From Bacteroidales bacterium (GTDB lineage Bacteria > Bacteroidota > Bacteroidia > Bacteroidales > GCA-2748055): DNA of 47,834 nt. The stretch lies in NCBI GenBank assembly GCA_023135955.1, contig JAGLSB010000509.1, forward strand, positions 1 to 47,834, written 5' to 3'. Within the stretch, counting starts at the first letter, position 1, and every line of letters begins with the position of its first letter. This document shows positions 6,923 through 24,722 of this stretch, one piece after another. The position numbers and the translations under genes are program-made. Below the pieces are notes generated by a model. That model searched no databases. It worked only from the letters and a program-made list of their open reading frames with translations, and had not been told where the DNA came from.

Positions 6923-8521
6923 ATGAGTAATATAGTTTATGACATGTTGGTGGTGCTTCTTTATTTTACAGTTATTATCGTAGCTGGGTATTTAGTAAGT
7001 AGAAAACATCGCAGTGACAGTGCCAGTGACTTTCTTACCGGGGGCCATACACTAAATTGGTTTAAAACCGGATTAACCCTTATTGCAATGTCTATCGACA
7101 CTGGGATTATGGGAGTAGCCGGAATCGGTTTTGTATGGGGGCTTGCCATTCAACCAAACGCCTTGAATTTGTGGATTGCCGCTCCTTTGGCAGCAATGTT
7201 TCTTATTCCCATCTATTGGAGGTCTAAAATTGTTACTACTCCCGAATTATTGGAAAAACGGTTTAATGTATACAGCCGGTCATTGTTTTCCGGATTGATG
7301 ACGCTTTATAATATTATTGTTCTGGGAACCTCTATTTATTTAGGAGGGTTGATCCTTCAGACCATTTTTGATTGGAATTTACTTATTTCCTGTTCGGTCA
7401 TCATGGTAGTGGTCGCAATTTATGTTATGATGGGTGGAATGAAAGCCGTTCTTACCATTAATATTTACCAGGCAGTATTTATAACATTAACACTCATGAC
7501 CGTTGGGATCACTTGTATTGTGAAGGTTGGTGGTCTTTCAGAATTGTTTAATAGTGATGTTCTTAGTGCTTCCGGGGCTCCACTGGCAAGCACTATGCTT
7601 CCTTTCGATTTAAGTTTAAAAAGTAAAATGTGGTATGCCATGCCATCCGGATTAATATGGGGCGCATTGGCTGGCACAGCTTGGATTGCCTGCAATTTTG
7701 GAATGGTGCAACGTCTATTAGCTGCAAAGGATGAAAAGAGTGCCCAGAAAGCAATTCTTTTTACCGGAGCCGGCCATGTGTTTACATTCTTTTTCGCGTA
7801 TGCCGTAGGTGTAAGTATCCATTTATTACAACCAGAACTTGCAAAAGCAGATGAATCATACATGTTTGCAATAATGAACTTTTTTCCTGTGGGTATAAGA
7901 GGTTTATTGATCGCGGGTTTAATCGCTTCATTAATATCAACCATCGATGGATTATTGACCTCATCAGGAACACTTATAACTACGGATATCTTTCTCAGAT
8001 TTTTCAAGCCAAAAGCAGACGATAAGACTATTAAACGATTCGCCAGAATTGTACAGGCTGTTGTTCTATTAATAGCCTTTTTTATCATTCCGGTTGCGGC
8101 TAAAGAGCAAACAGTTACCCGACTAATTCAGGACTTGATATCAATACCCCTGGGAGTTATGATTGCACTCTACCTTATTGGTGTTTTCAGTACAAGGGCT
8201 ACACCATGGGCTGCATTTATTGGCGCCTTAACAGGAACTGTTGTTGCCATTTCAATTTATTTCTTTTTGCCTGAAATTAACTTTTTAAACAGGGGATTCT
8301 TTGGTTTCATAACCGTTGTTATAACGACTATTAGTCTTAGCTTTTTTGAAAAAAGACAAAGTATTGAAAGTCTTGAGAACCTTACCGTATTTACACTTTC
8401 AGATGTAAAAGGTCCCTGGGTGGGACAGGGGGCTTGGAGCAATCTATGGAAATGGATACTTGGGATCATTGTGGGTTGGTTTGTTTTAACTACCATATGG
8501 GAATTGCTAGTATCTCATTAA
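6923..8521 (+). CDS. Sodium:solute symporter (SSS family), probable sugar transporter
   Basis: A 532-residue polytopic inner-membrane protein with roughly thirteen hydrophobic segments. SSS-family features include the first helix (MLVVLLYFTVIIVAGYLVSR), SDSASDFLTGGHTLNWF with the family's early FLAGR-like loop, the TLIAMSIDTGIMGVAGIGF segment and GLIASLISTIDGLLTSSGTL, which contains the conserved Ser/Thr sodium-site region. It probably imports a monosaccharide or small glycoside with Na+. It lies between the regulator and the GH130 gene, consistent with uptake of products released by the secreted enzymes downstream. Sugar specificity cannot be read from sequence. Confidence 0.92.
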   Translation: MSNIVYDMLVVLLYFTVIIVAGYLVSRKHRSDSASDFLTGGHTLNWFKTGLTLIAMSIDTGIMGVAGIGFVWGLAIQPNALNLWIAAPLAAMFLIPIYWRSKIVTTPELLEKRFNVYSRSLFSGLMTLYNIIVLGTSIYLGGLILQTIFDWNLLISCSVIMVVVAIYVMMGGMKAVLTINIYQAVFITLTLMTVGITCIVKVGGLSELFNSDVLSASGAPLASTMLPFDLSLKSKMWYAMPSGLIWGALAGTAWIACNFGMVQRLLAAKDEKSAQKAILFTGAGHVFTFFFAYAVGVSIHLLQPELAKADESYMFAIMNFFPVGIRGLLIAGLIASLISTIDGLLTSSGTLITTDIFLRFFKPKADDKTIKRFARIVQAVVLLIAFFIIPVAAKEQTVTRLIQDLISIPLGVMIALYLIGVFSTRATPWAAFIGALTGTVVAISIYFFLPEINFLNRGFFGFITVVITTISLSFFEKRQSIESLENLTVFTLSDVKGPWVGQGAWSNLWKWILGIIVGWFVLTTIWELLVSH

Positions 8522-8647: not shown

Positions 8648-8813
8648 CAAGTAGAAAATATACACCTATCAACTGTCGGGTTTTTTTTGTAAAATTCAAA
8701 AAAGGTACTTTCGATTTCGATAGGGTTTTATAATTCAGAAGCATTAGGATTGGAAAATTTTAGACCAAAAATTGCTTCAGAAAATCTTCCAATAGATAAT
8801 AAAATTGAAATTG

Positions 8814-9818
8814 ATGAGTACTCAGCATGAAATAAAAGTGTCGAAAGACATAAATGGCCTTGAAAAAAGAGACGCTACGAAAATATTAAGCAGACATCCG
8901 CAAAATCCTTTATTGCATATTAGTGATTTTCCGGGATGTGCCCAGTTATACAATCCTTCACCCGTAATGTTTGGTGATGAAACGATACTCTTAGTTTCTG
9001 TTGTCGATCACGCCGCTACCGATGGCTTTGGCAGAGATGTTGGCCAGACACGAGTTGCTCGTAGTATGGATGGCGTCAATTTTACCCTTTCTGAAAAGAA
9101 TTTTATCGAACTCCAAAGTGATGAATATCCTTATCCCCTCTATCATCACTTCATCGACAATCGGGTTACAAAAATTGATGACTGGTATTATATCATTACA
9201 CCTGTAATGGTGAAAGGATTCGATTCCCCTGTGGGAATGCTGGGGCGGACAAAAGATTTTGAATCTTACGAACGTATCGATATTATTACCCAGCCTAAAA
9301 ACCGGGGAGCATCTCTCTTTCCTGTAAAAATTAATGGCAAGTACTATAAATTAGATCGTCCTGGTGGCGGTGATGGTGGAGATGGTGACATATGGATAAG
9401 TGCCTCAACAGATTTAGTACACTGGGGAGAGTTTAAACCGGTAATTGCAGCAGGATATCGTTTCTGGAATGTTCAAAAAATAGGACCAACTCCACCGATA
9501 AAGACGAAGGACGGTTGGCTGGATATTATCCACGGTGTATTCTCTCCGGCCGGAGGAACCTACTATTATATTGGTGCAATTTTGCTTGATCTTGAAGAAC
9601 CCTGGAAAGTTATCGGTAAAACGAACAGCTATCTGATGATGCCACAGGAGGAGTATGAAAAACATGGAAATTGCGACAATACAATTTTTCCCTGTGGAGC
9701 CATTCCAAAATACGACATTGATGAACTATGGCTGTACTATGGTGCAACAGATTTCTCAATTTGTCTGGCAACAGGTTCCTTAAGTGGTATTGTTGATGCT
9801 TGTAAAAAAGGCCTGTAA
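8814..9818 (+). CDS. GH130-family glycoside phosphorylase or hydrolase
   Basis: From the ATG at 8814 the protein has 334 residues; a TTG three codons upstream (8805) is less likely. No signal peptide is present, so it acts in the cytoplasm. The five-bladed propeller pattern of GH130 is clear: AQLYNPSPVMFGDETILLVS near the start, KNRGASLFPVKINGKYYKLD, then KIGPTPPIKTKDGWLDIIHG at about residues 218-237, DLEEPWKVIGKT, and DNTIFPCGAIPKYDIDELWL with YYGATDFSICLATG at the end. Family members mostly phosphorolyse beta-mannosides, some hydrolyse them. Next to the symporter it may process imported disaccharides. Whether it is a phosphorylase here is open. Confidence 0.85.
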   Translation: MSTQHEIKVSKDINGLEKRDATKILSRHPQNPLLHISDFPGCAQLYNPSPVMFGDETILLVSVVDHAATDGFGRDVGQTRVARSMDGVNFTLSEKNFIELQSDEYPYPLYHHFIDNRVTKIDDWYYIITPVMVKGFDSPVGMLGRTKDFESYERIDIITQPKNRGASLFPVKINGKYYKLDRPGGGDGGDGDIWISASTDLVHWGEFKPVIAAGYRFWNVQKIGPTPPIKTKDGWLDIIHGVFSPAGGTYYYIGAILLDLEEPWKVIGKTNSYLMMPQEEYEKHGNCDNTIFPCGAIPKYDIDELWLYYGATDFSICLATGSLSGIVDACKKGL

Positions 9819-9907
9819 CATTCGGGCTTAATATTCATCCTTTAAAAAAGTTCAAAGCTATCTATCCCATTTTGGATAAAAATGAAATCTCAACAAATCC
9901 TGAAATT

Positions 9908-11713
9908 ATGCCAAAAATCACCCAAGTAAAATGGATCTCAATTCTAATCCTGTTTTCAATATTGATTGCTTCATGTGGGGAAAAGGAAATACCTGAAAAT
10001 AAATTTATTTACGCTAAAGATGGTCGCTTGTTTTTTCCTGATGGCAAGGAATTGTCCCTTTGGGGCGTAAACCTGCAACCTTGCTTGTCCTGGGAGTACA
10101 ATAGCTTGTTTAAATTAATTGGAGTTCCATTAAGAGCAGATAGTCTTAAACTGGCAACCGATAATGCCCTGGATGAGATCCAAAAAATGAACTGTGATTT
10201 AATCCGTTGTCATCTGACACCTTCCGACTTTACCGATAACGAGGGAAATCTGGTTGAAACGGTTTATCTTGACATCCTTGACTATATGGTTGCTGAAGCT
10301 TCTAATAGAGGAATTTACTCTTACATTACCTTTCTAAATACGAATATGGGTTTCGATATTGATGTTGATGAACCCAAAGATCATACCCCAAATTTTGTCG
10401 AAAATTCCTTTGGAGGTAAACTGGACCGTAAGCATCTTATTGAAAATGAGGACATAGTTAATAAATCAAAAAATTATATAAGCCAACTTTTAAACCGGGT
10501 AAATCCTTATTTAAAAACAAGCTACAAAAATACTCCAGCCATTGCTGTCTGGGAAATTAGCAATGAGCCTACCTATTACTCCTATAAGCAAGTGAAAGAA
10601 ACTCCCTATTATGAGGAGTTTAAATCGTGGGCATTAGGACAGGGATTGGAAGATACTGAAGAGGATTACGCCTCATATCGATATGATCTTGTATTGAACT
10701 ACATCAATGATATGTATGATGTAATACGCGAGACGGGAGCGGTACAGCCTATTGTTTGGAATTGTAACTGGAATAAAATGATCAATGGTCACGAAGAAAT
10801 TTTTGATGCCATTGGGATCTCTAAAGTTGAGGTCGTGTCATTTTGTAACTATCCCGGACAAAGTGTTTGTAAAAAACCATATACCAAAAATCCTGTTGAC
10901 CTTTCAGGTTACGACTTTTCATCCTTTTTAAAGAATTCATATACCAAAGAAGATTGGTATGGTTGGGCATTGCGGCCCGACTTTATGAAAAAGGCTAAGG
11001 TCGCCTATGAGTTTGAGATTTTCTACAATCAGAGTGCCTATTTATACCCTGCACAAGCATCATTCTTCAGGGCAATGGGTGTGCAAATGGCAAGTATGTG
11101 GCATTATAGTATGCCAAGGTACGCACCTTACAGAAATGGTTCACATCATTTAAGTCTGACCAGTACACCCCCAAAAGCAGCTTCTTATGCTGTTGCCGGA
11201 GAGTTATTTAGGTCCTTACCATTGTATCACGAATATGATACCGTTTCAACTACAGAAAAAGTGACTGAAAATTATATGTATTCCTATGAAAAGAATATTA
11301 GCATTTATAGCTCAGATGAAATGTATATCCATTCTGGGCCTGTTGATGATAATGAGTTGCCTGAGCCTTCCGGGAATGTAAAAAAAGTGATTGGCTTCGG
11401 AAACTCTCCCCTTGCTAAATACGATGGGAATGGTATTTATACTATAAATATTCAGGATAATTCGATTGAAATTGAAATAGAACCGAATACAGAACAATTA
11501 AAACCTCTTTGGGGAAAGGACTTTCTTGTTGGTCTCGTAACTCAACTAGATTATCTGACTCATCATTCATTTGAATTAAATCTTAAGGGCTGGGATGCTT
11601 CCAATTCTGTTATTTATCGATTGGAGAATGATGTTAAAACCAAAATAGAAGTTCTGGATAATTCACTCCTTTCATTTCAGGCTATTCCAGGAAAATATCT
11701 TATTGAAAAATAA
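9908..11713 (+). CDS. Clan GH-A glycoside hydrolase (GH5-like), lipoprotein; paralog A
   Basis: The ATG at 9908 gives 601 residues with a lipoprotein signal peptide (SILILFSILIASCGEK, lipobox Cys). An upstream in-frame TTG at 9872 would add a poor 12-residue extension. The catalytic domain is a TIM barrel: LSLWGVNLQPCLSWEYN, LIRCHLTPSDFTD, acid/base candidate Glu220 in AVWEISNEPTYY, and nucleophile candidates Glu368/Glu370 in VAYEFEIFYNQSAYLYP. It resembles GH5/cellulase-type enzymes in layout, but I cannot assign a CAZy family. Two paralogs occur at 15294 and 36280 with the same LxPSDFTD/LxPADFTD, NEP, YEFE and FYNQS signatures. It is followed 25 bp later by a sulfatase and is likely co-transcribed with it. 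Confidence 0.85.
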   Translation: MPKITQVKWISILILFSILIASCGEKEIPENKFIYAKDGRLFFPDGKELSLWGVNLQPCLSWEYNSLFKLIGVPLRADSLKLATDNALDEIQKMNCDLIRCHLTPSDFTDNEGNLVETVYLDILDYMVAEASNRGIYSYITFLNTNMGFDIDVDEPKDHTPNFVENSFGGKLDRKHLIENEDIVNKSKNYISQLLNRVNPYLKTSYKNTPAIAVWEISNEPTYYSYKQVKETPYYEEFKSWALGQGLEDTEEDYASYRYDLVLNYINDMYDVIRETGAVQPIVWNCNWNKMINGHEEIFDAIGISKVEVVSFCNYPGQSVCKKPYTKNPVDLSGYDFSSFLKNSYTKEDWYGWALRPDFMKKAKVAYEFEIFYNQSAYLYPAQASFFRAMGVQMASMWHYSMPRYAPYRNGSHHLSLTSTPPKAASYAVAGELFRSLPLYHEYDTVSTTEKVTENYMYSYEKNISIYSSDEMYIHSGPVDDNELPEPSGNVKKVIGFGNSPLAKYDGNGIYTINIQDNSIEIEIEPNTEQLKPLWGKDFLVGLVTQLDYLTHHSFELNLKGWDASNSVIYRLENDVKTKIEVLDNSLLSFQAIPGKYLIEK

Positions 11714-11738
11714 TTAAGTTTTATCATAATTCTGAGCT

Positions 11739-13337
11739 ATGTCAGTGCGTAAACAAGTAATCAGTATCCTTCCTGTAATTTTTCTTTCAACAGGATGTAG
11801 TGAATCAATTAAACAAGACCTCAAACCCAATGTGGTAGTTATGTATATCGATGATTTGGATTTTGATGAACTAGGCTATTATGGTTCGATAAATCTAACT
11901 CCGAATATTGATAAGCTTGCCAGTGAAGGAATGAATTTCACACGTGCATATGTTACATCTACTGTATGCACACCCAGTCGGTATGGTCTTGTAACCGGTA
12001 ATTATGCATCCCGGTCGATAGCCATTCAGGAAAATCCAGCATCCACTTGGCGAAATCGACTTTATCCGCCCGGAACCGATGCAAATGTTCATTTTAATTG
12101 TATTCTGACTCCTGGAGAAAAGACCTTTGGTAATTATATGCATGAAGCGGGTTATGTGACTGGTATGGTTGGGAAATGGCATATGGGCGGTAGCGCAAAA
12201 GGAGAATATATCTATAAAGATAGTGACGGCAATTTTACAAAGCCTAAAATACCCTTGAATAAGGAAGAAAGTTATGACAGTCCCTACAACCAACAGTCTA
12301 TTAAAGAGCATTACAAAACCATAACCAATTATATTAAAGAAAATTTCGGATTCGATTTTGTTGATGGTTTTTTTGAACAGAATGCTTCTGGTCTGCGGCA
12401 ATCAGGATATCCGGAAATTTATCAAAAACATAATCTGGAATGGATAACCGCCAACGGACAGAAATTTATTAGAGAAAACAAGGATATACCATTCTTTCTA
12501 TATTATGCTTTAACCCTGCCACACGGCGAACAAGGTGGGTTTAAAGAAAATATTGAGTCCTCCGAATTGACAATTACTCCTGGTGGAAGAATTGATAAAA
12601 TGCCTGAAACCGGTATGCCTGATAGAAACAAGCTATCTGAACGCTGCAAAGCAGCAGACTTAAAACCGGCATCGATGGCCATGATGTATGTGGATGATGC
12701 AGTGGGAGCACTTTTAAATACCTTAAAAGAAGAGGGACTGGAAGAAAATACGATTGTAATGTTTATCAGCGATCATGGAAATTATGCAAAACTGGCACTT
12801 TTTGAAGGTGGGGTCAGGGTACCATTTATTGTTAAATGGCCGGGGATTGTAAAAGCCGGATCATCAAATGACCAGATTATTGCAAATATTGATGTTACTC
12901 CAACCATTTTAGAAATTTCTGAGTCTAATAAAGAAATTAGTTTTGATGGAATTAGTTTTTTATCACTTCTAAAAGGAAGCAAGGAATCCATACGTGAAGC
13001 CCTGTTAATTGAAGTAGGGTATGCAAAGGCAATAGTCACGAAAGAATCCAAGCTTACCTACATCCGGTTTCCTGAAGAAGAAAAGGAAACTATTGAAGGT
13101 CATGGAGGAATAGACGGTATCAATTACAATGCCTCAAACGCAACATTTGCAAAACGTCAAAAATCCAATTATCCTGGTTATTGGGATTTAAACCAACTAT
13201 ATGATCTGGTAAACGATTCTGCAGAGCAGAAAAATATTTATTCCGATAACCCTGAAAAGCTTGAGGGATTGGAAGAACTTATGAAAAGGGAGCTAGATAA
13301 ATTGCCTCATACTTTTGGCGAAATAAAAGTAAAATAG
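11739..13337 (+). CDS. Sulfatase (S1 family), lipoprotein, Cys-type
   Basis: A 532-residue sulfatase with a lipoprotein signal (VIFLSTGCSES). It hydrolyses sulfate esters, here presumably on a polysaccharide or its oligomers. Metal ligands appear in YIDDLDFDELGYYGS, the formylglycine motif is VCTPSRYGLVTG with Cys77 as the residue to be oxidised, GKWHMGG supplies the conserved Lys and His, and SDHGNYAKLALFEGGVRVP carries the second metal site and a conserved Lys. The C-terminus ends LPHTFGEIKVK. It is a close relative of the catalytic part of the sulfatase at 19559 and a more distant one of that at 29899. The gap to the next gene is 4 bp. Confidence 0.95.
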   Translation: MSVRKQVISILPVIFLSTGCSESIKQDLKPNVVVMYIDDLDFDELGYYGSINLTPNIDKLASEGMNFTRAYVTSTVCTPSRYGLVTGNYASRSIAIQENPASTWRNRLYPPGTDANVHFNCILTPGEKTFGNYMHEAGYVTGMVGKWHMGGSAKGEYIYKDSDGNFTKPKIPLNKEESYDSPYNQQSIKEHYKTITNYIKENFGFDFVDGFFEQNASGLRQSGYPEIYQKHNLEWITANGQKFIRENKDIPFFLYYALTLPHGEQGGFKENIESSELTITPGGRIDKMPETGMPDRNKLSERCKAADLKPASMAMMYVDDAVGALLNTLKEEGLEENTIVMFISDHGNYAKLALFEGGVRVPFIVKWPGIVKAGSSNDQIIANIDVTPTILEISESNKEISFDGISFLSLLKGSKESIREALLIEVGYAKAIVTKESKLTYIRFPEEEKETIEGHGGIDGINYNASNATFAKRQKSNYPGYWDLNQLYDLVNDSAEQKNIYSDNPEKLEGLEELMKRELDKLPHTFGEIKVK

Positions 13338-13341
13338 TATT

Positions 13342-14721
13342 ATGAATTCAGCTAAGATTTTTATATTCTTAACGATATCTTTCTCCAATCTTTTGTGCTT
13401 TGGGCAGGATGGCTCGTACGATTTTTTCGACGGAACCGATATACAGACATATTGCATTATGACTTATGCAGAGGATCAAATAAAGGATGTACGAAAAAGT
13501 GATTTTTTGCTGACTATTCATGATGAAAATGGAAACTCAATAAACGATTCGGTAAATATTGAACTGGTTTCACATGAATTTGATTTTGGAACCGATTTAT
13601 TTAATTTTCATAAACTTGATAATTCCGATCCGGCACTGATTACTTCCCTAAAAGTTATCGACACCCTTTTTAATTCTGTAATTATTTGTGATTACTGGGG
13701 TACTAACCAGAATCAACTAAATGGACCCTTTAATTGGGATTCACCCGATTATGGCTTTCAGATTGCCGAAGATTACAAGAAAAGAGGGCGTTATCATGCT
13801 TTGATTTTTGGCTTTCCAAGGTGGTTGCATTATTTCGATACCGAAGAAAAGCAATGGGAAGTAATCGAACAACGATTTATGAATGTAGCAGGCAGGTATG
13901 GCGATTTGATTACGGAGATTGATGTTATCAATGAGTTTGTCAATTACCAATATTGGGATCAAAATGCCCATGCCCTGTATTTAAAAACTACTACTTTTCC
14001 TGATTTTGCGAAACCCGAGAACGGTCTTAGGGTGTTGAAGCTTGCAAAAAAACATTTTCCAAATGCCAGACTGGTAGTACTGGAAACCGGGATATGGAGT
14101 ATGAAAAATCCTGTTTTTCATGAAATTTACGATTACCATAAATATCTCATAGATCATAATGCCCCAGATTATTTTATTGGATACCAGGCACATTATTATT
14201 CTGATGGATTACCTTTCCAGGAGGGTTCCAGAAAATATGGCCCCAGAACTTTTATGATGGATGATATCAACAGCGCCATTGAACATATGGGTTCTCTTGG
14301 CAAGCCTATGACTATTACAGAGTTTAATCCGCCTTCAAGAAATAATCAAAACACCGACCCAGATCAACCCAGAATAAGTGACGAAGAAATTGCTGCCTGG
14401 GAAACCAACTTCTATACACTGATGTTTTCCAAACCCTATGTGTATGGACTTTCCAGATGGTTTACAGTTGATAACCTGGGTGGCAAAGGCATGGATGCAG
14501 GCGTGGTAACCGAAGAAGGAGAATTGAAACCAAATTATTTTGCATTAAAGAAGCTGATTAAAGAGAAATGGCATACAAGATGGGAAGGGAATGCAAATCA
14601 AACCATTTCTTTGAATGGATTTTACGGTACTTACAAAGTAAATATTGATGGGTTTGAAGAAGAAATAGTTGAACTAACCCAATTGAATACCTTACAAACA
14701 ATTATACTCCGAAAGAAATAA
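13342..14721 (+). CDS. GH10-type secreted glycoside hydrolase
   Basis: A 459-residue protein with a signal peptide ending near LLCFGQDG. After a small beta-rich N-terminal stretch (LLTIHDENGNSINDSVNIEL and EFDFGTDLFNF, the usual lead-in of GH10-like proteins) comes a TIM barrel with acid/base Glu198 in IDVINEFVN and nucleophile Glu327 in MTITEFNPPS. These two motifs match the WDVxNE and xTExD positions of GH10 xylanases. LSRWFTVDN and KPNYFALKKLI complete the barrel. It should cut an internal beta-linked backbone such as xylan; the true substrate may differ, because divergent GH10 proteins are common. It is tightly coupled to the upstream sulfatase. Confidence 0.85.
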   Translation: MNSAKIFIFLTISFSNLLCFGQDGSYDFFDGTDIQTYCIMTYAEDQIKDVRKSDFLLTIHDENGNSINDSVNIELVSHEFDFGTDLFNFHKLDNSDPALITSLKVIDTLFNSVIICDYWGTNQNQLNGPFNWDSPDYGFQIAEDYKKRGRYHALIFGFPRWLHYFDTEEKQWEVIEQRFMNVAGRYGDLITEIDVINEFVNYQYWDQNAHALYLKTTTFPDFAKPENGLRVLKLAKKHFPNARLVVLETGIWSMKNPVFHEIYDYHKYLIDHNAPDYFIGYQAHYYSDGLPFQEGSRKYGPRTFMMDDINSAIEHMGSLGKPMTITEFNPPSRNNQNTDPDQPRISDEEIAAWETNFYTLMFSKPYVYGLSRWFTVDNLGGKGMDAGVVTEEGELKPNYFALKKLIKEKWHTRWEGNANQTISLNGFYGTYKVNIDGFEEEIVELTQLNTLQTIILRKK

Positions 14722-14810
14722 AAAAAATGAGTATATGCTTAGAATATTTTCAATACATTCCTTGTTATTTCGCAAGGACATTAATGCATTCATTTGCTTA
14801 TAACAGAATT

Positions 14811-15092
14811 ATGAAACAGAAGCATATTTTATCAATTTAAATTCTAATTATCTGAATCTCGGTAAATCCACTATTTTCACAGGAAGTTACAGGTGAATTG
14901 AAAAAATGGCATAAGGTCACAATTAAATTTAACGGTTCTTTAACCAGTGAGACAAAAACCGATAATCCATTTTTGAATTCTGGCACAATCGGCTGGGAAC
15001 AAATCTTTGGCGAGATTTTATATTCTCAAATGGTGCTATTTTTAAGGACTTTTCAAAATACTGCTATTATAAGTCTTCTTTTGCTAATATAA
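14811..15092 (+). pseudogene. Decayed DUF5060-type glycoside hydrolase gene (N-terminal remnant)
   Basis: Reading one frame from the ATG at 14811 gives MKQKHILSI, stop, ILII, stop, then ISVNPLFSQEVTGELKKW and HKVTIKFNGSLTSETKTDNP without interruption. That is a signal peptide broken by two in-frame stops followed by the first half of a DUF5060 domain, the beta-sandwich found at the N-terminus of some secreted GH-A hydrolases. The similarity ends after about 65 residues (FLNSGTIGW), and a different frame continues briefly to about 15111. Everything downstream of that domain is missing. It was probably another hydrolase of this locus, lost by deletion and point mutation. Confidence 0.6.
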
Positions 15093-15154
15093 ACACCTCA
15101 GCTATTTAATGGACTGTATTTTTACCAATTATCGACTCTTCGAGCATAATTAAA

Positions 15155-15201
15155 ATTGGCTGTTTTTTAAATCTCATTGTAATACCAAATTACTAATTTT
15201 A
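15155..15201 (+). promoter_or_regulatory. Degenerate locus element plus -7-like box, copy 3 (GH-A/FN3 gene)
   Basis: ATTGGCTGTTTTTTAAATC at 15155-15173 keeps the TTGGC core but little of the 3' half. TAATTTTA, one base off TAnnTTTG, starts 39 bp after the element's start, at the same spacing as the better copies. It precedes the 15294 gene by 93 bp. Weak alone; supported by spacing and position. Confidence 0.3.
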
Positions 15202-15293
15202 TGAAATTCGATAAGGTCTGAGTTTTTACCATAGAAAATATTTCTTTGGTTCATACTGGATTTGAATTTTAAAAGGAGTTAACAATTAGTGAT

Positions 15294-18200
15294 ATGAACT
15301 CAATTTTCAAGACTTGTAGAAAATTTAATAAAGTAATTTATAATGGGATTAATCCTAAATACCTATTTGTTACCATAATACTGGTCCTGGCATCTAATTT
15401 ATTTGCACAAGATGATTTTGTATATGTTCAGGATGGAAGATTGCTCTATCCCAATGGAGAGGAGGTAGCTCTCATGGGGGTAAATCTCCAAACTATGATT
15501 TCCTGGGAGTACAATGCGAAATTGAAGGATGCAGGAATTCCTAAGGATGCGGAAGTCTGGAAAAGAATGGCTGATAAAAGCCTGGATGAGCTTGAAATAA
15601 TGGGTGCCAATTATATACGTGTACATCTTACACCCTCTGATTTTACCGATGCCAATGGAGGCCTGATAGAAACAATTTATCTCGATTTGTTAGATTATAC
15701 GACTGCAGAAGCAGCCAAACGTGGCATCCGTTTGTGCTATGCATTCATGAATTATATGGGTGGCTATGAAGTTGCTTCTTCCTTTATGAGAACCTCTTAT
15801 CTGGAAGCAAAATCTATATCTTCAGCAGATGAAAAATATTATCATAAGGCTTTGTTGATGTTTGATAATGATTATCTGGCTGCATCTAAAAACTATATAC
15901 GAAACTTATTAAACAGGGAGAACCCTTATAGCAATAAGGCATACAAGTCGGATACCAACATTATTGTTTGGGGTATTCAAAACGAACCAACGTATTTGGA
16001 TTACAATCAGCTAAAATTATACACAGAAGAATATTCCAGATTTCAGATCTGGCTGACCGATAATGGTCTGACTGAAAATAATGGTGCTAACTATCCCTCC
16101 TATCGCAAACAAAGGGTGAAGGGATACATAAATGAAATTCATGACGAGATAAGAAGTACCGGATCTGTTCAGCCTGTGGAATGGAGCCTGAACTGGCACA
16201 GATTCCGTAATGGTCGTGAAGATGTATTTACAGCGGTAGCAGAATCAAAAGTTGAGGTGGTATCGTTCTGTACCTATCCAGGTCAAAGTGTTGCCACACA
16301 GTTAGGTGGGGGGAGCTATTTGAATTTCGATGGTGATCTTTCTACCTACGACTTTAGCGATTGGTTTAAAAGCGGCTACAATGAATTATCATGGTATGGC
16401 TGGCTTCTTACTAATGATTTTAGCTCCAAGGCAAAAATTGTATATGAGTTTGAAAGTTTTTATAACCAGAGTTCATATATATATCCTGCTATTGCTGATC
16501 TACAGCGTTCTTTAGGGGCACAGGCAGCTGCCATGTGGCACTATAGTCAACCTGATTATGCTCAGTACAACAGTGGATCGCATATTTTGAATCTTAAATG
16601 TACCCCCAATAAAGCTGCAGCCTTTGCGGTGGCTTCGAAAATATACCAGAATACCCAGACAGAACAAGCTTATCATCCAAACTCAACAACCGAGTGGCAA
16701 ACAGATAATTATATGTATTCATTCTCTAATGATATTGCCATTTATAGCGATGATGAATCATACTGCTATTCGGCAAGTGTAAGTCCGGGACAATTACCAT
16801 CACCTCCCATCAATCCGAAATATATAATGGGTATTGGTAATTCAGAGCTGGTGGAATACTCAGGAAACGGGAACTACCTAATAGAATTAGTTGGCGATAC
16901 ACTGGACCTAAATATCCAACCTGATGTCAGTTATAACTACTCGCTATCCTCAAGAGAAGATGCCTTAATAACTAATTTGCATTATGACACTATCCATGAT
17001 CTTAAGTTAAAATTCTGGGAAAAGTACGGAAAGTATGAAATTTTCTCGGTTGAAGAAGGCAAGTATGAACTGGTATCTACCGCTTTTTATTTAGACAGTT
17101 TGAGTGTCAAACCGGGAAAATACAAAATTTTTATTGCCGACACTTTATATTCAGCAGAAAGTGAAGCTCCTACTACTCCGGCAAATTTAGTTGTTGGAAA
17201 TGTAAAGCCAACCAAAGTAGATCTTAGCTGGGAAGCTTCCTCAAACGCTTATATTGAGAAATATATTGTATTTGTGGATGGTGTAGAAGACATAGCTGTT
17301 TTTGCGCCAGCAACGAGCGTTACCATCGATGGTCTGACATGTGGAAATTCCCATAACTTAAGTGTGAAAGCCGTTAGTGGTGCTGGAAATGAATCACCGC
17401 TTAGTGCAATTGAAACTGTTACAACCGATATTTGCGATATTATTGCTCCAACGAAGCCCACTAATCTCGTTTCTTCTAACATTACACCCAACAGTATTAA
17501 GCTTTCCTGGCAACAGTCAAGTGACAATATTGAAGTATGGGAATATGAAGTTTATATAAACGGTAAAAAAAAACTTGAGGTTCTTTACCCCGATACAAGC
17601 ATTAATATAAGTGGATTATACTGTGAAACCGACTATGAACTGTCCGTAAAGGCAAAAGATGAGGCAGGTAATTTATCACCTGCCAGTGAGATTCTGGCTG
17701 TCAGTACTATTGCATGCTCAGGATTAATTAGCTATCAGGAATGGAGAGGTATTGAAGGCTGGGAATTATCAGATTTAACATCTCATCCTGATTATCCTGA
17801 AAATCCTGACACCACCGGATATGTAACTTCCCTCCAAATCCCGACTAACTATGGATATAATTACGGCCAGAGGTTTTTGGGAAGTATAATCGCACCCGAA
17901 ACAGGGACCTATTATTTCTGGATTGCATCGGATAATGCTGGTCAGCTATGGCTAAGCCCTGATAATACATATGATAATAAATTATTGATCGCTTATAACA
18001 ATAGCTGGACCAATTACCAGGAATGGAATAAATTCTCATCTCAAAAGTCGGCAGGAAAAAACCTTATCAAGGACCAAAAATATTATGTTGAAGTTATAAT
18101 GAAGGCTGCTGCCGGTGGAGACCACCTAACTGTAGGCTGGAGAAAGCCATCAGATGGTATAGGTACTGAACCCTTTGAAATAATTTCTGGAAGAGTATTA

Positions 18201-19544
18201 GGTCCTTACCAGGACCATAGGGCTCCTACAATTCCTGTAAATCTCCTTGCGTCCAACATTACAGAAACCAGTCTGGATTTAAATTGGGATAGTTCAACAG
18301 ACGATTCCGGGCTGGCCGGATATTATATTCTCCAAAATGATGAACTTATCGATACTCTTTTAACTACATCCATTTCCATTACTGGTCTTACAAGCGGTTT
18401 ATCCTATGACTTTGCTATTAAAGCTTTTGATATATATGGCAATGTATCAAAATCAAGCATGGTTGAGACTGTGGTGACAACTGACAATGAGGAACCATCA
18501 GCACCCGGAAACCTTGTTGCAACGGAAATTACAGGAAATAGTTGCAAACTAAGCTGGGATTCCTCAACAGATAATGCAGCAATTGAAGCTTATGATATCT
18601 ATAAAAATGCTGTGTTTAAAAGCTCGGTAACAGATACTTTTTCTATCATAACTGGTTTAGAAATGGTTGTTTCTTATACTTTTACAGTAAAGGCCAGGGA
18701 TGCAGCCGGAAATAGTTCCAATGAAAGTAGTGTGGTGGTTCTTACCCCGGATACAGAAGCGCCATCTACTCCTTCCAACCTAACTTCATCGAATATTACA
18801 GGGAATAGCTGCTCACTTAGCTGGCAAGCATCAAATGATAATATTGATGTCGCAGAATATGAGGTATTCAAAGATGGTGAACTGGAAAAAAGCGTTTATT
18901 TTACTTATACTGATATATCTGAATTAACAAATGCCATCTCGTACACCTTTACCGTCCGGGCGAAAGATGTAGCCGGAAATGTTTCAGAAGAAAGTAATGC
19001 CATTATTGTAAATACTCTTGATACTGAAGCCCCAACAACTCCAGTAAATCTTAGGGCTTCAAATATATCACTGTCTGGTGTGGATCTAAGCTGGGAAGCT
19101 TCAACCGATAATCTGGGAGTAACTGCCTATGAGGTTTTCAAAAATAATGAGTTTGAAACATTAGTAAGCAATACTAATATATCTATTACAGGATTGCAGG
19201 TAAAAACAAATTACGAATTCCAGGTAAAGGCATTGGATGCTGCCGGAAATATTTCTATTGCAAGTAATTCTGTCAGCGTTTTTATAGATAATACCTCAGC
19301 GTCATTCCTTCAGGCTTCCGATAATAATATCCTACTCTATCCCAATCCAGCCAAGGATTTTGCCTACATAAAGAATGCTTTAGAAGGAATTGTTTCGGTA
19401 TTGTCAGTGGATGGAAGAATTATGTTGAGTAAAGATTATAAAAGAGGCGATTTAATTGATTTAAGTTCGCTTACACCTGGTTTTTATATCTTAAGATTAT
19501 CGGGAAATGGAATGATTAACTTGTGTTTTTCAATTGAAAGATAA
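15294..19544 (+). CDS. T9SS-secreted GH-A hydrolase with six FN3 repeats and a PA14 domain; paralog B
   Basis: A 1416-residue modular enzyme with a signal peptide (LVLASNLFAQDD). Residues about 40-610 are the GH5-like TIM barrel shared with the genes at 9908 and 36280: LTPSDFTD, acid/base candidate Glu231 in VWGIQNEPTY, nucleophile candidates Glu385/Glu387 in IVYEFESFYNQSSYIYP. Two fibronectin type III repeats follow (about 624-805), then a PA14 domain (about 808-973; ISYQEWRGIEGWEL, RFLGSIIAPETGTYYFWIAS), four more FN3 repeats (976-1332) and a T9SS type A tail starting NILLYPNPAKDF. PA14 often binds carbohydrate. The enzyme should be exported across the outer membrane and held at or released from the surface. 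It is followed 14 bp later by a sulfatase with the same kind of FN3/T9SS tail. Confidence 0.9.
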   Translation: MNSIFKTCRKFNKVIYNGINPKYLFVTIILVLASNLFAQDDFVYVQDGRLLYPNGEEVALMGVNLQTMISWEYNAKLKDAGIPKDAEVWKRMADKSLDELEIMGANYIRVHLTPSDFTDANGGLIETIYLDLLDYTTAEAAKRGIRLCYAFMNYMGGYEVASSFMRTSYLEAKSISSADEKYYHKALLMFDNDYLAASKNYIRNLLNRENPYSNKAYKSDTNIIVWGIQNEPTYLDYNQLKLYTEEYSRFQIWLTDNGLTENNGANYPSYRKQRVKGYINEIHDEIRSTGSVQPVEWSLNWHRFRNGREDVFTAVAESKVEVVSFCTYPGQSVATQLGGGSYLNFDGDLSTYDFSDWFKSGYNELSWYGWLLTNDFSSKAKIVYEFESFYNQSSYIYPAIADLQRSLGAQAAAMWHYSQPDYAQYNSGSHILNLKCTPNKAAAFAVASKIYQNTQTEQAYHPNSTTEWQTDNYMYSFSNDIAIYSDDESYCYSASVSPGQLPSPPINPKYIMGIGNSELVEYSGNGNYLIELVGDTLDLNIQPDVSYNYSLSSREDALITNLHYDTIHDLKLKFWEKYGKYEIFSVEEGKYELVSTAFYLDSLSVKPGKYKIFIADTLYSAESEAPTTPANLVVGNVKPTKVDLSWEASSNAYIEKYIVFVDGVEDIAVFAPATSVTIDGLTCGNSHNLSVKAVSGAGNESPLSAIETVTTDICDIIAPTKPTNLVSSNITPNSIKLSWQQSSDNIEVWEYEVYINGKKKLEVLYPDTSINISGLYCETDYELSVKAKDEAGNLSPASEILAVSTIACSGLISYQEWRGIEGWELSDLTSHPDYPENPDTTGYVTSLQIPTNYGYNYGQRFLGSIIAPETGTYYFWIASDNAGQLWLSPDNTYDNKLLIAYNNSWTNYQEWNKFSSQKSAGKNLIKDQKYYVEVIMKAAAGGDHLTVGWRKPSDGIGTEPFEIISGRVLGPYQDHRAPTIPVNLLASNITETSLDLNWDSSTDDSGLAGYYILQNDELIDTLLTTSISITGLTSGLSYDFAIKAFDIYGNVSKSSMVETVVTTDNEEPSAPGNLVATEITGNSCKLSWDSSTDNAAIEAYDIYKNAVFKSSVTDTFSIITGLEMVVSYTFTVKARDAAGNSSNESSVVVLTPDTEAPSTPSNLTSSNITGNSCSLSWQASNDNIDVAEYEVFKDGELEKSVYFTYTDISELTNAISYTFTVRAKDVAGNVSEESNAIIVNTLDTEAPTTPVNLRASNISLSGVDLSWEASTDNLGVTAYEVFKNNEFETLVSNTNISITGLQVKTNYEFQVKALDAAGNISIASNSVSVFIDNTSASFLQASDNNILLYPNPAKDFAYIKNALEGIVSVLSVDGRIMLSKDYKRGDLIDLSSLTPGFYILRLSGNGMINLCFSIER
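17163..19290 (+). repeat. FN3-coding repeat units in the GH-A gene
   Basis: Six related units of about 90 codons, two before and four after the PA14 insert (17715-18213). Each opens with a pattern like APxTPxNLxxSNIT and contains LSWxASTDN and a YEFxVKAxDxAGN close. Some share DNA-level similarity (for example the ITGNSC block near 18530, 18796 and again at 21770 in the next gene), pointing to duplication within and between the two genes. Confidence 0.8.
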
Positions 19545-19558
19545 AACTTGATAAAATA

Positions 19559-22258
19559 ATGATTAATACTAAATCAATACCAACTTTTAAAACAGGAATA
19601 AGTTGTTTGGTTCTTCTGCAAGGAGTTTCTCAAATGTCAATAAAAGCAGCAGCTCCTCCCACCGAGAAACCTAACATCATAATTATTTATGCCGATGATC
19701 TGGATGCAGACGAACTTAATCACACAGTTAATGATATTGATATATGGCCAACATTTAACGGTGTTAAAAGTCTTGGCATTGACAGCTATAACAAAACTTT
19801 TAGCCCATTGCTTTTGACTCCCAATATCGATTCACTGGCAAACGGAGGTATGATGTTTACGCATTTCTATGTTAATGCTACAGTTTGTACCCCTAGTCGC
19901 TATAGCTTACTAACCGGACGTTATGCAACAACTGGAGAGGAATTACTCGACCAGTATCCAGCCGGTACACATGCCACACTCGATTGGAGTCCTGCTATTA
20001 TCAGAAGTGAAAGCCTCCTGCCAAAAGAACTTAAAAAAGCAGGATACCGTACGGGTATTGTTGGCAAGTGGCATAATACTCCTGATGAGGCAAATTTGCC
20101 CGTCTCATCATCAAAAATTGAGAAAAACTCTCATCCAAGCTATGAAGAAGCGCTGGAAGAGGATGCCTTTCTCAAAAATCATCAGCAAACAGGAGTCAAC
20201 TATTTAAGTGAAGGTTTTGGATGGGATGTGGTCGAACGAATGGAGTGGGGAAATTCAATTGTAAACCTGGACTGGATGTGTGAAGGGGCGCTTAATTTTA
20301 TCGAAGAGAGTAAGGATACTTCCTTTTTCCTTTATTTATCCTTACCGGTGCCCCATGGTCAATATCAATACATTTACAATTCTTTAGATGTCCTGGATAG
20401 AAGGGTTTGTGCAAATGGAATCCTGCCGGATAATTATTCCATATTGCCCTCAGATAGTGATGTATACAGAAGAATCGATTCAGCAGGTGTCCCCAGAGAA
20501 AACGCTATGGCTACACATATGGACGATTATGTAGGTGCGGTTATGAATAAACTGGAGGAACTTGGAATAGGGGAGAATACCCTCATTATTTTTACAAGCG
20601 ATCACGGCAACCGTGGAAAAAATAGTTGTTATGAAGGAGGAGCCAGGATCCCTATGTTTATTTACTGGCCCGGTAAGATTGATCCAGGCACAACAAACAG
20701 TAGCCTGATTGGCAATATCGATATTTCAGCAACCTTACTGGATCTGGTAAGGATCACGCCTCCCGAGGATATGTCGCGCGACAACCTTAGCTTTTTACCT
20801 CAATTATTAGGAGATCCCGAACCTCTGGATTGGAGGAAAAGTATGATGATTGAAGCAGGGAATTCAAAAGCCATTGTTACAAAAGAATACAAGTATATCG
20901 CCAACAGGGTCACTCCCGAAATTGCGCAAAGTATGGCTGAACAACCGAAAGTGGTATATTGGTCGGGGGTTGATCACCACAATTACAACACCGAATTCAT
21001 GTATAAAGGCTATTGGGATGCAGATCAACTATATGATCTGGAGAATGACCTTTACGAACAAAAAAACCTTATGGGCAATCAGGGATACAAAGATATGCTG
21101 ATAGAAATGAAATCGGAGCTTGCCAGTTATGTTTCAAAACTGCCTCATTCATTTGGCGAGTTTAGCGAAGGGGGCTCAGTTCTTTCCGCTTTTAATGCTC
21201 CGACAAATCTTATTGCTTTGAATATTACTCCTACTAATCTTGATTTAAAATGGGATGCATCAAGCCATGACATTGGTCTGGTGGGATACGAAGTATATAA
21301 AGACGATGTTTTAGAGACCTTCGCTACAGGAACATTTGTATCCATTACGGGATTAGCTCTGGATTCAACTTACAAATTTAAGCTAAAAGCCCTTGATGTA
21401 ACAGGCACATATTCATCAGAAAGCAATGAGGTGACCATTAAAACACGATATCCGGATGAGGAAAGTCCGTCAGCTCCTTCCAATCTTATTGCTACTGAAA
21501 TTACAGCTACTGGATGTGAACTATCCTGGGAGCCTTCAAACGACAATATAGGTGTTATCGCTTACGAGGTTTATAAAGATGGTGAGTTTTTGACCACAAC
21601 TTCAGGAACATCCATTTCAATTAGTGGTTTGGAGAGTTTCCAAACTTACATTTTTACAGTTAAGGCAAAGGATTTTGATGGTAATATTTCCACGGAAAGT
21701 AACAGGTTTACAATAATAACTTCTGATAATATTCCTCCAACAGCGCCGTCTAATTTTACTGTCTCAAATATTACCGGAAACTCTTGCGGACTTGGTTGGT
21801 CGGCTTCCACTGATAATGTGGGTATAGAAGAATACGAAATTTACAGGGATGGTGTTCTAGATACTATCGTTTACTTCCCCCATGTCACAATTAGTGGTTT
21901 AAGTAATTCCACAACCTATGTTTTCACGGTTAAGGCAAAGGATGTAGCCGGAAATCTTTCAGAAGAAAGTAGTGAATTAATTGTGACTACCCTTGATTCG
22001 GTAATTATTGGAACTCAAAAAATTATTGTACAGGATGGAATAGAAATATACCCAAATCCAGTGGGAAGTATGCTATATATCTCAAATCTTGAAAGTGGTT
22101 TGCTCAGTATTCATTCTTTCGATGGCAGGCAGGTGTTAAGTGCTGATCACAGGCCTGGTCTGGCAGTTGATGTATCCTCATTGTCGTCGGGAGTTTATAT
22201 TCTTGAGATTTCAGCTAACAGGAAAAACTACTTATTGATAAAAAGTGGAGCAGAATAG
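19559..22258 (+). CDS. T9SS-secreted sulfatase with three FN3 repeats
   Basis: An 899-residue protein: signal peptide (LVLLQGVSQMSIKAAAPPTE), sulfatase domain about 35-540, three FN3 repeats about 546-812 and a T9SS tail from IEIYPNPVGSML to the end. Catalytic features are YADDLDADEL, formylglycine motif VCTPSRYSLLTG with Cys110, VGKWHN, and SDHGNRGKNSCYEGGARIP. The catalytic domain closely tracks the lipoprotein sulfatase at 11739, down to the ending LPHSFGEF. FN3 plus a T9SS tail on a sulfatase is an uncommon layout and mirrors the neighbouring hydrolase, suggesting that both act together outside the cell on the intact polymer. Confidence 0.92.
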   Translation: MINTKSIPTFKTGISCLVLLQGVSQMSIKAAAPPTEKPNIIIIYADDLDADELNHTVNDIDIWPTFNGVKSLGIDSYNKTFSPLLLTPNIDSLANGGMMFTHFYVNATVCTPSRYSLLTGRYATTGEELLDQYPAGTHATLDWSPAIIRSESLLPKELKKAGYRTGIVGKWHNTPDEANLPVSSSKIEKNSHPSYEEALEEDAFLKNHQQTGVNYLSEGFGWDVVERMEWGNSIVNLDWMCEGALNFIEESKDTSFFLYLSLPVPHGQYQYIYNSLDVLDRRVCANGILPDNYSILPSDSDVYRRIDSAGVPRENAMATHMDDYVGAVMNKLEELGIGENTLIIFTSDHGNRGKNSCYEGGARIPMFIYWPGKIDPGTTNSSLIGNIDISATLLDLVRITPPEDMSRDNLSFLPQLLGDPEPLDWRKSMMIEAGNSKAIVTKEYKYIANRVTPEIAQSMAEQPKVVYWSGVDHHNYNTEFMYKGYWDADQLYDLENDLYEQKNLMGNQGYKDMLIEMKSELASYVSKLPHSFGEFSEGGSVLSAFNAPTNLIALNITPTNLDLKWDASSHDIGLVGYEVYKDDVLETFATGTFVSITGLALDSTYKFKLKALDVTGTYSSESNEVTIKTRYPDEESPSAPSNLIATEITATGCELSWEPSNDNIGVIAYEVYKDGEFLTTTSGTSISISGLESFQTYIFTVKAKDFDGNISTESNRFTIITSDNIPPTAPSNFTVSNITGNSCGLGWSASTDNVGIEEYEIYRDGVLDTIVYFPHVTISGLSNSTTYVFTVKAKDVAGNLSEESSELIVTTLDSVIIGTQKIIVQDGIEIYPNPVGSMLYISNLESGLLSIHSFDGRQVLSADHRPGLAVDVSSLSSGVYILEISANRKNYLLIKSGAE
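21195..21998 (+). repeat. FN3-coding repeat units in the sulfatase gene
   Basis: Three units of about 90 codons (starting APTNLIALNIT, APSNLIATEIT and APSNFTVSNIT). The third shares the ITGNSC and DVAGNxSEES wording with units 4 and 5 of the preceding hydrolase gene, so the repeats of the two genes seem to have a common recent source. Confidence 0.75.
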
Positions 22259-23258: not shown

Positions 23259-24722
23259 ATGTATAAAATGCTTTCACTCGCTGCTTTAACATTCAGCTAT
23301 TCTCATCCGGTTGAAGTTCCGGATACGGTCGAGAAAAAACCTCATATATTGTTTATCGCGATCGACGATTTACGTCCCGATTTAGGATGTTATGGAAACA
23401 CTGAGGTAAAAAGTCCAAACATCGACCAGTTGGCTAGTGAAGGCACTTCTTTTATGCGAGCATTTTGTCAGCAAGCTGTTTGTGGTCCTTCCCGTATAAG
23501 TCTCATGACCGGTATTCATCCTGATGGACTCGGATTGTGGGGTATGAGCGGAAGTCATTTAATCGAATGGCGGGAAACACGTACCGGGATAACCAGTTTA
23601 TCGGAGCAGTTCCGTAAAAATGGATACAAAGCTTATGGCTATGGAAAAATTTATGACCATCGTTTGGGTTTGGATATTGAGCACTCGTGGGACGAGTATA
23701 AGGGAGGAAAAACTTCATACAACCTAAAAAAGCACAACAGGGAAGGACGTTCGATAAATGGTAGTTCTCCATTAAAACCTGCATTTTTTGCGGTGGATGC
23801 AGTGGATGCAGAATTATCGGATGGCTACGTTGCCAATCTGGCCATCGAAAAACTTAAAGCATACGATACAAGTCAACCACTGTTTCTTGCAGTTGGGTTC
23901 CAAAAACCGCATCTGCCTTTTGTTGCTCCTAAAAAGTATTTTGACCTTTATGAGACTGAAAAACTTACATTGGCAGAGCGTAGATGTCCACCCGAATGGC
24001 ATACCGAGTTCATGTTCTCGTGGTACAAAGAAATAAACAGTTATGACGTTCCATATCCTATCCCTGAAGATATGCAGCGTCAGCTCATCGAGGGCTATTA
24101 TGCCTGTGTTAGTTATGTAGATGCACAAATTGGTAAAATCATTGTCACCCTGAAGGAAAAAGGAATGTATGACAATACTATGATTGTACTCTGGGGCGAC
24201 CATGGATTCAAACTGGGAGAGCATGGGGAATGGGCCAAACATACAAATACCGAACATGATGCAAGGGTTCCGTTTATAATTGCTGCTCCCGGGAATTATG
24301 AAAAGAATGCAAAGACAAAGGCCCTGGTCGAACTGGTGGATTTATTCCCGACTATGTGTGAGCTTGCAGGTATTCCGGTTCCGGATCATACTGAGGGACA
24401 CAGCCTGGTTCCGATAATGAAGGATAAAGATGCTAACGTCCGGAAATTTGCACTAACCCAATATCCAATGGTTAGGTCCACTATGAGCTATTCTATACGA
24501 ACAGATGACTGGAGATATGTCGAGACACGTAGCGACATAACAGGTGAACCTATTGCCGCTGAACTTTACGATTTACGCAGTAATTCAATAGAAATAAAGA
24601 ATAATTTGAATGATTATCCGGAAGTGGCAAAAGAACATGCAGCCATGTTGGATAAATATTTAAAAAGTGCTAAAAAATGGACGGGCGGTCATATGATAAG
24701 CTCCTGGGGTCCGGTCGAATAG
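23259..24722 (+). CDS. Sulfatase, iduronate-2-sulfatase-like
   Basis: A 487-residue sulfatase with a short, weak signal peptide (MYKMLSLAALTFSYSHPVEV). It belongs to the iduronate-2-sulfatase-like group, shown by FIAIDDLRPDLGCYG, the formylglycine motif AVCGPSRISLMTG with Cys75, the YGKIYDHRLG segment in place of GKWH, LFLAVGFQKPHLPFVAPKKY and WGDHGFKLGEHGEWAKHTN. The gene at 26738 shares all of these signatures and is its paralog. The name reflects fold similarity only; related enzymes in algal-polysaccharide loci remove 2-O or other sulfates from sugars such as fucose, galactose or uronic acids. Confidence 0.94.
   Translation: MYKMLSLAALTFSYSHPVEVPDTVEKKPHILFIAIDDLRPDLGCYGNTEVKSPNIDQLASEGTSFMRAFCQQAVCGPSRISLMTGIHPDGLGLWGMSGSHLIEWRETRTGITSLSEQFRKNGYKAYGYGKIYDHRLGLDIEHSWDEYKGGKTSYNLKKHNREGRSINGSSPLKPAFFAVDAVDAELSDGYVANLAIEKLKAYDTSQPLFLAVGFQKPHLPFVAPKKYFDLYETEKLTLAERRCPPEWHTEFMFSWYKEINSYDVPYPIPEDMQRQLIEGYYACVSYVDAQIGKIIVTLKEKGMYDNTMIVLWGDHGFKLGEHGEWAKHTNTEHDARVPFIIAAPGNYEKNAKTKALVELVDLFPTMCELAGIPVPDHTEGHSLVPIMKDKDANVRKFALTQYPMVRSTMSYSIRTDDWRYVETRSDITGEPIAAELYDLRSNSIEIKNNLNDYPEVAKEHAAMLDKYLKSAKKWTGGHMISSWGPVE

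Follow-up and report, generated by a model that had tools for sequence, protein, structure and literature searches.

Gene content of the locus

The window analysed here is a whole contig (C456, 47,834 nucleotides) from a Bacteroidales bacterium, the genome of which is fragmented (4.6 Mb, 856 contigs, 88% complete). Its 5.6–41 kb region encodes an AraC regulator, a sodium symporter, a GH130 phosphorylase, three GH-A glycosidases, nine S1 sulfatases, a GH10-like protein, an AP-endonuclease-type TIM barrel, and further T9SS cargo. No SusC/SusD pair was recognised among the genes of the whole contig, and the locus is thus not classified as a PUL. The host genome is extremely rich in sulfatases (235 matching stretches at E 1e-3) and contains about 98 T9SS tail matches, which imply an active T9SS. 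The features discussed below are as follows.

6923–8521, +: sodium:solute symporter, with relatives at 79–80% identity adjoining GH-A genes in Mariniphaga and Carboxylicivirga
8805–9818, +: GH130 beta-mannoside phosphorylase, no signal peptide seen, predicted cytoplasmic
9908–11713, +: GH-A hydrolase, lipoprotein version, signal peptidase II box IASC, AlphaFold2 pLDDT 87
11739–13337, +: S1 sulfatase, lipoprotein version, STGC and CTPSR, nearest solved relative OpSulf1 (9fvt)
15294–17150, +: GH-A catalytic domain, T9SS version, plain Sec signal
17163–17711, +: FN3 units A1–A2 of 15294 (Pfam, FN3 profile)
17826–18152, +: PA14 domain of 15294, residues 845–953, between A2 and A3 (Pfam)
18219–19289, +: FN3 units A3–A6 of 15294 (Pfam, FN3 profile)
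19335–19544, +: T9SS type A sorting tail of 15294 (Por_Secre_tail)
19559–21180, +: S1 sulfatase domain, T9SS version, CTPSR motif
21194–21997, +: FN3 units B1–B3 of 19559 (Pfam, FN3 profile)
22046–22258, +: T9SS type A sorting tail of 19559, reciprocal best with the 15294 tail
29899–31581, +: third sulfatase of the same S1 group as 11739 and 19559, lipoprotein, Ser-type SVPSR
36280–38025, +: third GH-A copy, plain Sec signal, tail absent
38074–39468, +: lipoprotein S1 sulfatase of a different S1 group, directly after 36280

Four open frames (9872/9908–11713, 11739–13337, 15294–19544, and 19559–22258) form two pairs that lie approximately 2 kb apart in identical orientation, with gaps of 25 bp (9908/11739) and 14 bp (15294/19559) between the partners. 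In both, a GH-A hydrolase precedes an S1 sulfatase, and neither version has lost its catalytic motifs: the hydrolases retain NEP and YEFE, and the sulfatases retain the CTPSR formylglycine motif. Assignment of 11739 and 19559 to SulfAtlas family S1 follows from PF00884 matches (E 3e-45 and 5e-43, respectively) and from CTPSR. The first pair carries lipoprotein signals (ILIASC-GEKE on 9908, IFLSTGC-SES on 11739) that are absent from 15294 and 19559; these signals and the signal peptides were read by eye. In Pfam, 15294 has six FN3 units, a PA14 domain, and a Por_Secre_tail, while 19559 has three FN3 units and a Por_Secre_tail. Both thus combine a Sec signal (by eye) with the C-terminal tail of T9SS type A cargo; TIGR04183 scores 31.1 and 35.6 bits (cut-off 23), and PF18962 is likewise above its cut-off. 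The first-pass annotation had described the four genes in these terms, with one pair of lipoproteins and one pair bearing FN3 repeats and sorting tails, and its description is borne out; it overlooked the PA14 domain, the third pair, including the GH-A copy at 36280, and the membership of 29899 in the S1 group of 11739 and 19559.

In the stretch from 14721 to 15294, one small frame (window 14880–15010, +) reads QEVTGELKKWHKVTIKFNGSLTSETKTDNPFLNSG. It presumably is a decayed remnant and resembles the beginning of a gene for a DUF5060-type glycosidase. The sulfatases at 23259–24722 and 26738–28192 (+) are 49% identical and represent a further duplication within the locus. At 29899, serine replaces cysteine at the formylglycine site, such that a Ser-type maturase would be needed.

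A common FN3 and T9SS tail

When a profile built from the nine FN3 units of 15294 and 19559 is run against the genome, 9 of its 11 matches fall in these two genes (108–136 bits), and the remaining two are weak (43 bits in a sulfatase on contig C354 and 28 bits on C652); as the genome is incomplete, other FN3 genes could be hidden. The sorting tails are reciprocal best matches among the 84 compared, with 41% identity versus 33% for the runner-up and 58.5 bits versus 49.7 for the next match. The FN3 and T9SS stretch as a whole aligns at 42% identity over 344 aa (E 6e-81). FN3 identity averages 43% between the genes and 42% and 45% within them, and the closest pair overall, A5–B3, is a between-gene pair (58%). 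The wording reported by the first-pass annotation (ITGNSC and KDVAGN[VL]SEES) is indeed common to the repeats of both genes. In a tree, the units of the two genes intermix, as a common origin would have it; a single clade of 19559 units is disfavoured, although it survives the AU test (p about 0.09).

No other gene in the genome has this FN3 and T9SS set; what moved between genes would therefore seem to be the tail and not the catalytic domain. Third codon positions of the FN3 units are only 30–48% identical, i.e., near saturation, and the copying is thus old. The matching tails most likely go back to ancient copying of a tail between neighbouring genes, although a donor outside both genes is possible, because tail identity is low. 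The earlier proposal that the tail passed from one gene to the other therefore stands with respect to the sharing, given the confinement of the FN3 units and the reciprocal best tails; the direction is conjectural. Had the genes been duplicated recently and the tail freshly copied between them, the common wording and the 58% identity of A5 and B3 would be explained. Such an event is extremely improbable and was rejected on DNA divergence: the catalytic domains are only 34–45% identical, the third codon positions have diverged as above, and long near-identical DNA repeats are absent.

A collinear block copy of A3–A5 to B1–B3 gives the best register, but its permutation p is 0.07–0.10 and other assignments reach equal scores; it was dropped. 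Rooting the FN3 tree with the C354 and C652 units was likewise abandoned, as their branches are too long to help. A sulfatase on C354 (L186, C354:1358–3079, −) ends in a single FN3-like unit, apparently without a T9SS tail.

Kinship of the catalytic domains and origin of the pairs

The genome encodes four GH-A copies. The GH-A domains of 9908 and 15294 are 43–45% identical, and 36280 is 50% identical to 9908 and 46% to 15294. The fourth resides on contig C338, which has no sulfatase; its neighbour there resembles a glucosamine-6-phosphate deaminase gene (identified by eye). Relatives were located in Bacteroidales genomes. The family is rare. At E 1e-40, the host genome alone has it among 393 genomes of its order, and 395 genomes of the phylum yield one further, more distant match. 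A search of 60 relatives, 27 of them of the same genus or family, gave only far weaker matches; plasmids contain relatives at 24–26% identity only, and none was found in viral contigs. Proteins of ~850 aa with 25–29% identity are more widespread (L036–L041, L065).

The AlphaFold2 model of the GH-A protein (pLDDT 87, pTM 0.88) matches GH5, GH35, and GH164 structures, which places the family in clan GH-A. NE220P and E368/E370 (YEFE) are invariant in its nine members. None of the nine (0/9) matches PF00150 (cellulase), and no specific Pfam or NCBIfam model recognises the family (window 9872–11713 and 36280–38025; L002; L030–L034); it may constitute an unclassified CAZy family. Two assignments were dropped: GH164, for which there is fold similarity only (about 10% identity), and GH42, which had one marginal Pfam match of 64 residues in 1/9 members.

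The first-pass annotation interpreted the two pairs as a unit that was duplicated, with one copy re-targeted. The kinship of the tails is supported, but duplication of the unit, as stated, is not. In trees of the four copies and five relatives (from Mariniphaga, Carboxylicivirga, Paludibacter, Rikenellaceae, and an uncultured Bacteroidales), 15294 clusters with 36280, the C338 copy, and the Mariniphaga protein (97–100 support), leaving 9908 outside. A forced clade of 9908 and 15294 is rejected (AU p 0.012, and 0.035 with outgroups added), also when the longest row is dropped (p 0.014) or a simpler model is used (p 0.008). Identity agrees, as 9908 is closer to 36280 (50%) than to 15294 (43%). 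On the GH-A side, the two genes are thus not closest relatives, an outcome that the first-pass annotation had itself named as one that would refute its proposal.

The sulfatase domains of 11739 and 19559 are only 34–38% identical, yet they are reciprocal best matches within the host genome as well as across 198 genomes of its order. The tree recovers them as sisters, each on a long branch (1.06 and 1.28), with a support of 87/89 that becomes 95/97 when outgroups are left out. Both fall within a 100/100 clade that includes OpSulf1; S1 subfamilies besides S1_51 are represented in the tree by a few outgroups only. OpSulf1 (9fvt) is also the top PDB match of both, with E 1.7e-63 for 11739 (218 versus 143 bits for the next match) and 3e-58 for 19559 (201 versus 115 bits). 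The expected sisterhood is therefore recovered, but four alternatives survive the AU test (p 0.11–0.22); a probable, very deep sister relationship is suggested. On the same tree, the T9SS state changes (by gain or loss) at least three times, so that re-targeting by acquisition of a tail is plausible, and it would be recurrent.

Two further histories were considered. In the first, GH-A genes and sulfatases were duplicated and shuffled separately, adjacency and matched destinations are largely coincidence, and only the tail was exchanged. This account, which we hold tentatively and at somewhat less than even confidence, agrees with the rejection of the 9908 and 15294 clade and with the repeated changes in T9SS state. 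A sulfatase follows every GH-A gene in the window, but in the third case it belongs to a different group, and that pair (36280 and 38074) is discordant in destination. The coordinated destinations of the two partners, previously read as the mark of a functional unit, do not by themselves exceed chance in a locus so rich in sulfatases (9/16 exported genes): agreement is expected with P about 0.22 if gene order is fixed and 0.09 if it is free. What independent assembly accommodates poorly is the reciprocal best relationship of 11739 and 19559.

In the second history, the whole unit underwent an old tandem duplication, after which both genes of one copy acquired the tail; three proteins that lack this sulfatase type (36280, the GH-A on C338, and that of Mariniphaga) would also descend from the GH-A lineage on the tailed side. 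A single old event of this kind, followed by duplications of GH-A alone, would agree with both trees. The probable sisterhood of the sulfatases, the similar path lengths (about 2.1 for GH-A and 2.3–3.0 for the sulfatases, varying with the set-up), and the proximity of the two units in the same orientation are consistent with such an event. However, in the clade of 15294, 36280, C338, and Mariniphaga, only 15294 adjoins this sulfatase type, such that several losses would be needed. In addition, the pair is absent from every outside genome examined, and the sulfatase sisterhood falls short of AU significance. Old duplication of the unit is accordingly a possible but rather doubtful explanation.

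Paludibacter shows another combination (L032:9995–13298), in which the gene directly after the GH-A encodes a sulfatase from a further group; its site is Ser-type (SGPSR), and it is 25% identical to window 23259.

Putative substrate and cellular location

In profile searches, the GH-A family hits GH5 endo-beta-mannanases (8gf3, E 2e-15) in the region of the acid/base NEP motif, with sequence similarity confined mainly to about 100–135 residues. The first fold matches of the model are likewise GH5 mannanases and mannosidases, and GH35 beta-galactosidases and a GH164 beta-mannosidase rank lower. The family shares with GH5 beta-mannanases and mannosidases (8gf3, 4qp0, and 1uuq) the barrel, the NEP motif, and an LLNRxNpYxxxxYKxDxxIxxWExxNEP segment. 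It differs from GH5 in its low structure-alignment identity (about 12–15%), in the absence of a Pfam cellulase match, and in an extra C-terminal beta domain, for about 600 aa overall. GH130 enzymes phosphorolyse beta-mannosides. In other genomes, the recurrent neighbours of the GH-A gene are the symporter (Mariniphaga and Carboxylicivirga) and GH130 (Paludibacter, 83% identical to the GH130 of the window), but not this sulfatase type.

The closest characterised parallel is the breakdown of diatom sulfated mannan by PbSulf1-GH195 of Polaribacter and by OpSulf1 and OpGH195 of O. pacifica, in which the sulfatase and GH195 are fused and exported by the T9SS in one species and encoded by two separate genes in the other, with further enzymes in the periplasm (PMC13063451). 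OpSulf1, an S1_51 enzyme, is an endo-acting mannan sulfatase specific for C6 sulfate, and its GH195 partner can cut only once OpSulf1 has acted (PMC13063451). In the window, too, a sulfatase of the same S1 group is found with a glycoside hydrolase, and the placement of an S1_51-group sulfatase and a hydrolase outside the cell is already known from the diatom system. The hydrolases differ, however: GH195 acts on alpha-1,3-mannan and is followed by GH92, whereas the window has a GH5-like GH-A and GH130.

On the basis of the GH5-like GH-A, the OpSulf1-like sulfatases, and GH130, the best guess for the substrate is a sulfated mannose-rich glycan. Its linkage is uncertain, since OpSulf1 acts on an alpha-1,3-mannan, while beta-mannosides are the substrates of the GH5 and GH130 relatives; the polysaccharide is probably beta-mannosidic, but it could be neither of the two. 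With their common secretion tail, 15294 and 19559 probably work outside the cell, and the cousin pair is probably anchored at the envelope. It is proposed that the T9SS pair would act together, with the hydrolase cutting at sites that the sulfatase has exposed, and that the lipoproteins 9908 and 11739 would process the products at the envelope. Uptake of the resulting sugars would be through the sodium symporter, and the GH130 phosphorylase would then cleave them. The preferred reading of the window, for which the chances appear evenly balanced, is therefore a cluster for a sulfated mannose-containing glycan with the T9SS pair outside, the lipoprotein pair at the envelope, and a tail copied between neighbours. 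A stronger version, in which an uncharted GH-A family and S1_51-like sulfatases degrade a sulfated beta-mannan at two cellular addresses, the partners having moved out together by the copied tail under selection for co-localisation at the level of the enzyme pair, is considered unlikely.

The distribution of related enzymes over different cell addresses is a known strategy. For alginate, Zobellia has extracellular AlyA1 and AlyA7 versus periplasmic AlyA5 and others (PMC8073546, PMC9296495). There, as proposed here, endo-enzymes are outside and oligosaccharides are finished in the envelope; the Zobellia enzymes are single lyases, whereas the window would be a variation with a two-enzyme set and one common secretion tail. 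The locus thus offers a concrete case of two different adjacent enzymes with the same FN3 and T9SS tail. The association of a rare, uncharacterised GH-A family with sulfatases, GH130, and a sodium symporter also makes it a lead for sulfated mannan breakdown.

Some similarities to outside loci extend beyond these genes. A related Carboxylicivirga cluster (L031) starts with an apparent SusC/SusD pair (by eye, from protein ends) and includes a 53% relative of the 23259/26738 sulfatases, plus relatives of 24987 and 28237. On the opposite strand of the window, 41413–45366 (−) encodes a 1317-aa T9SS protein, a full-length relative of which (32% identity) lies directly after the Mariniphaga GH-A gene (L030:5446–9459), hinting at a wider conserved gene content.
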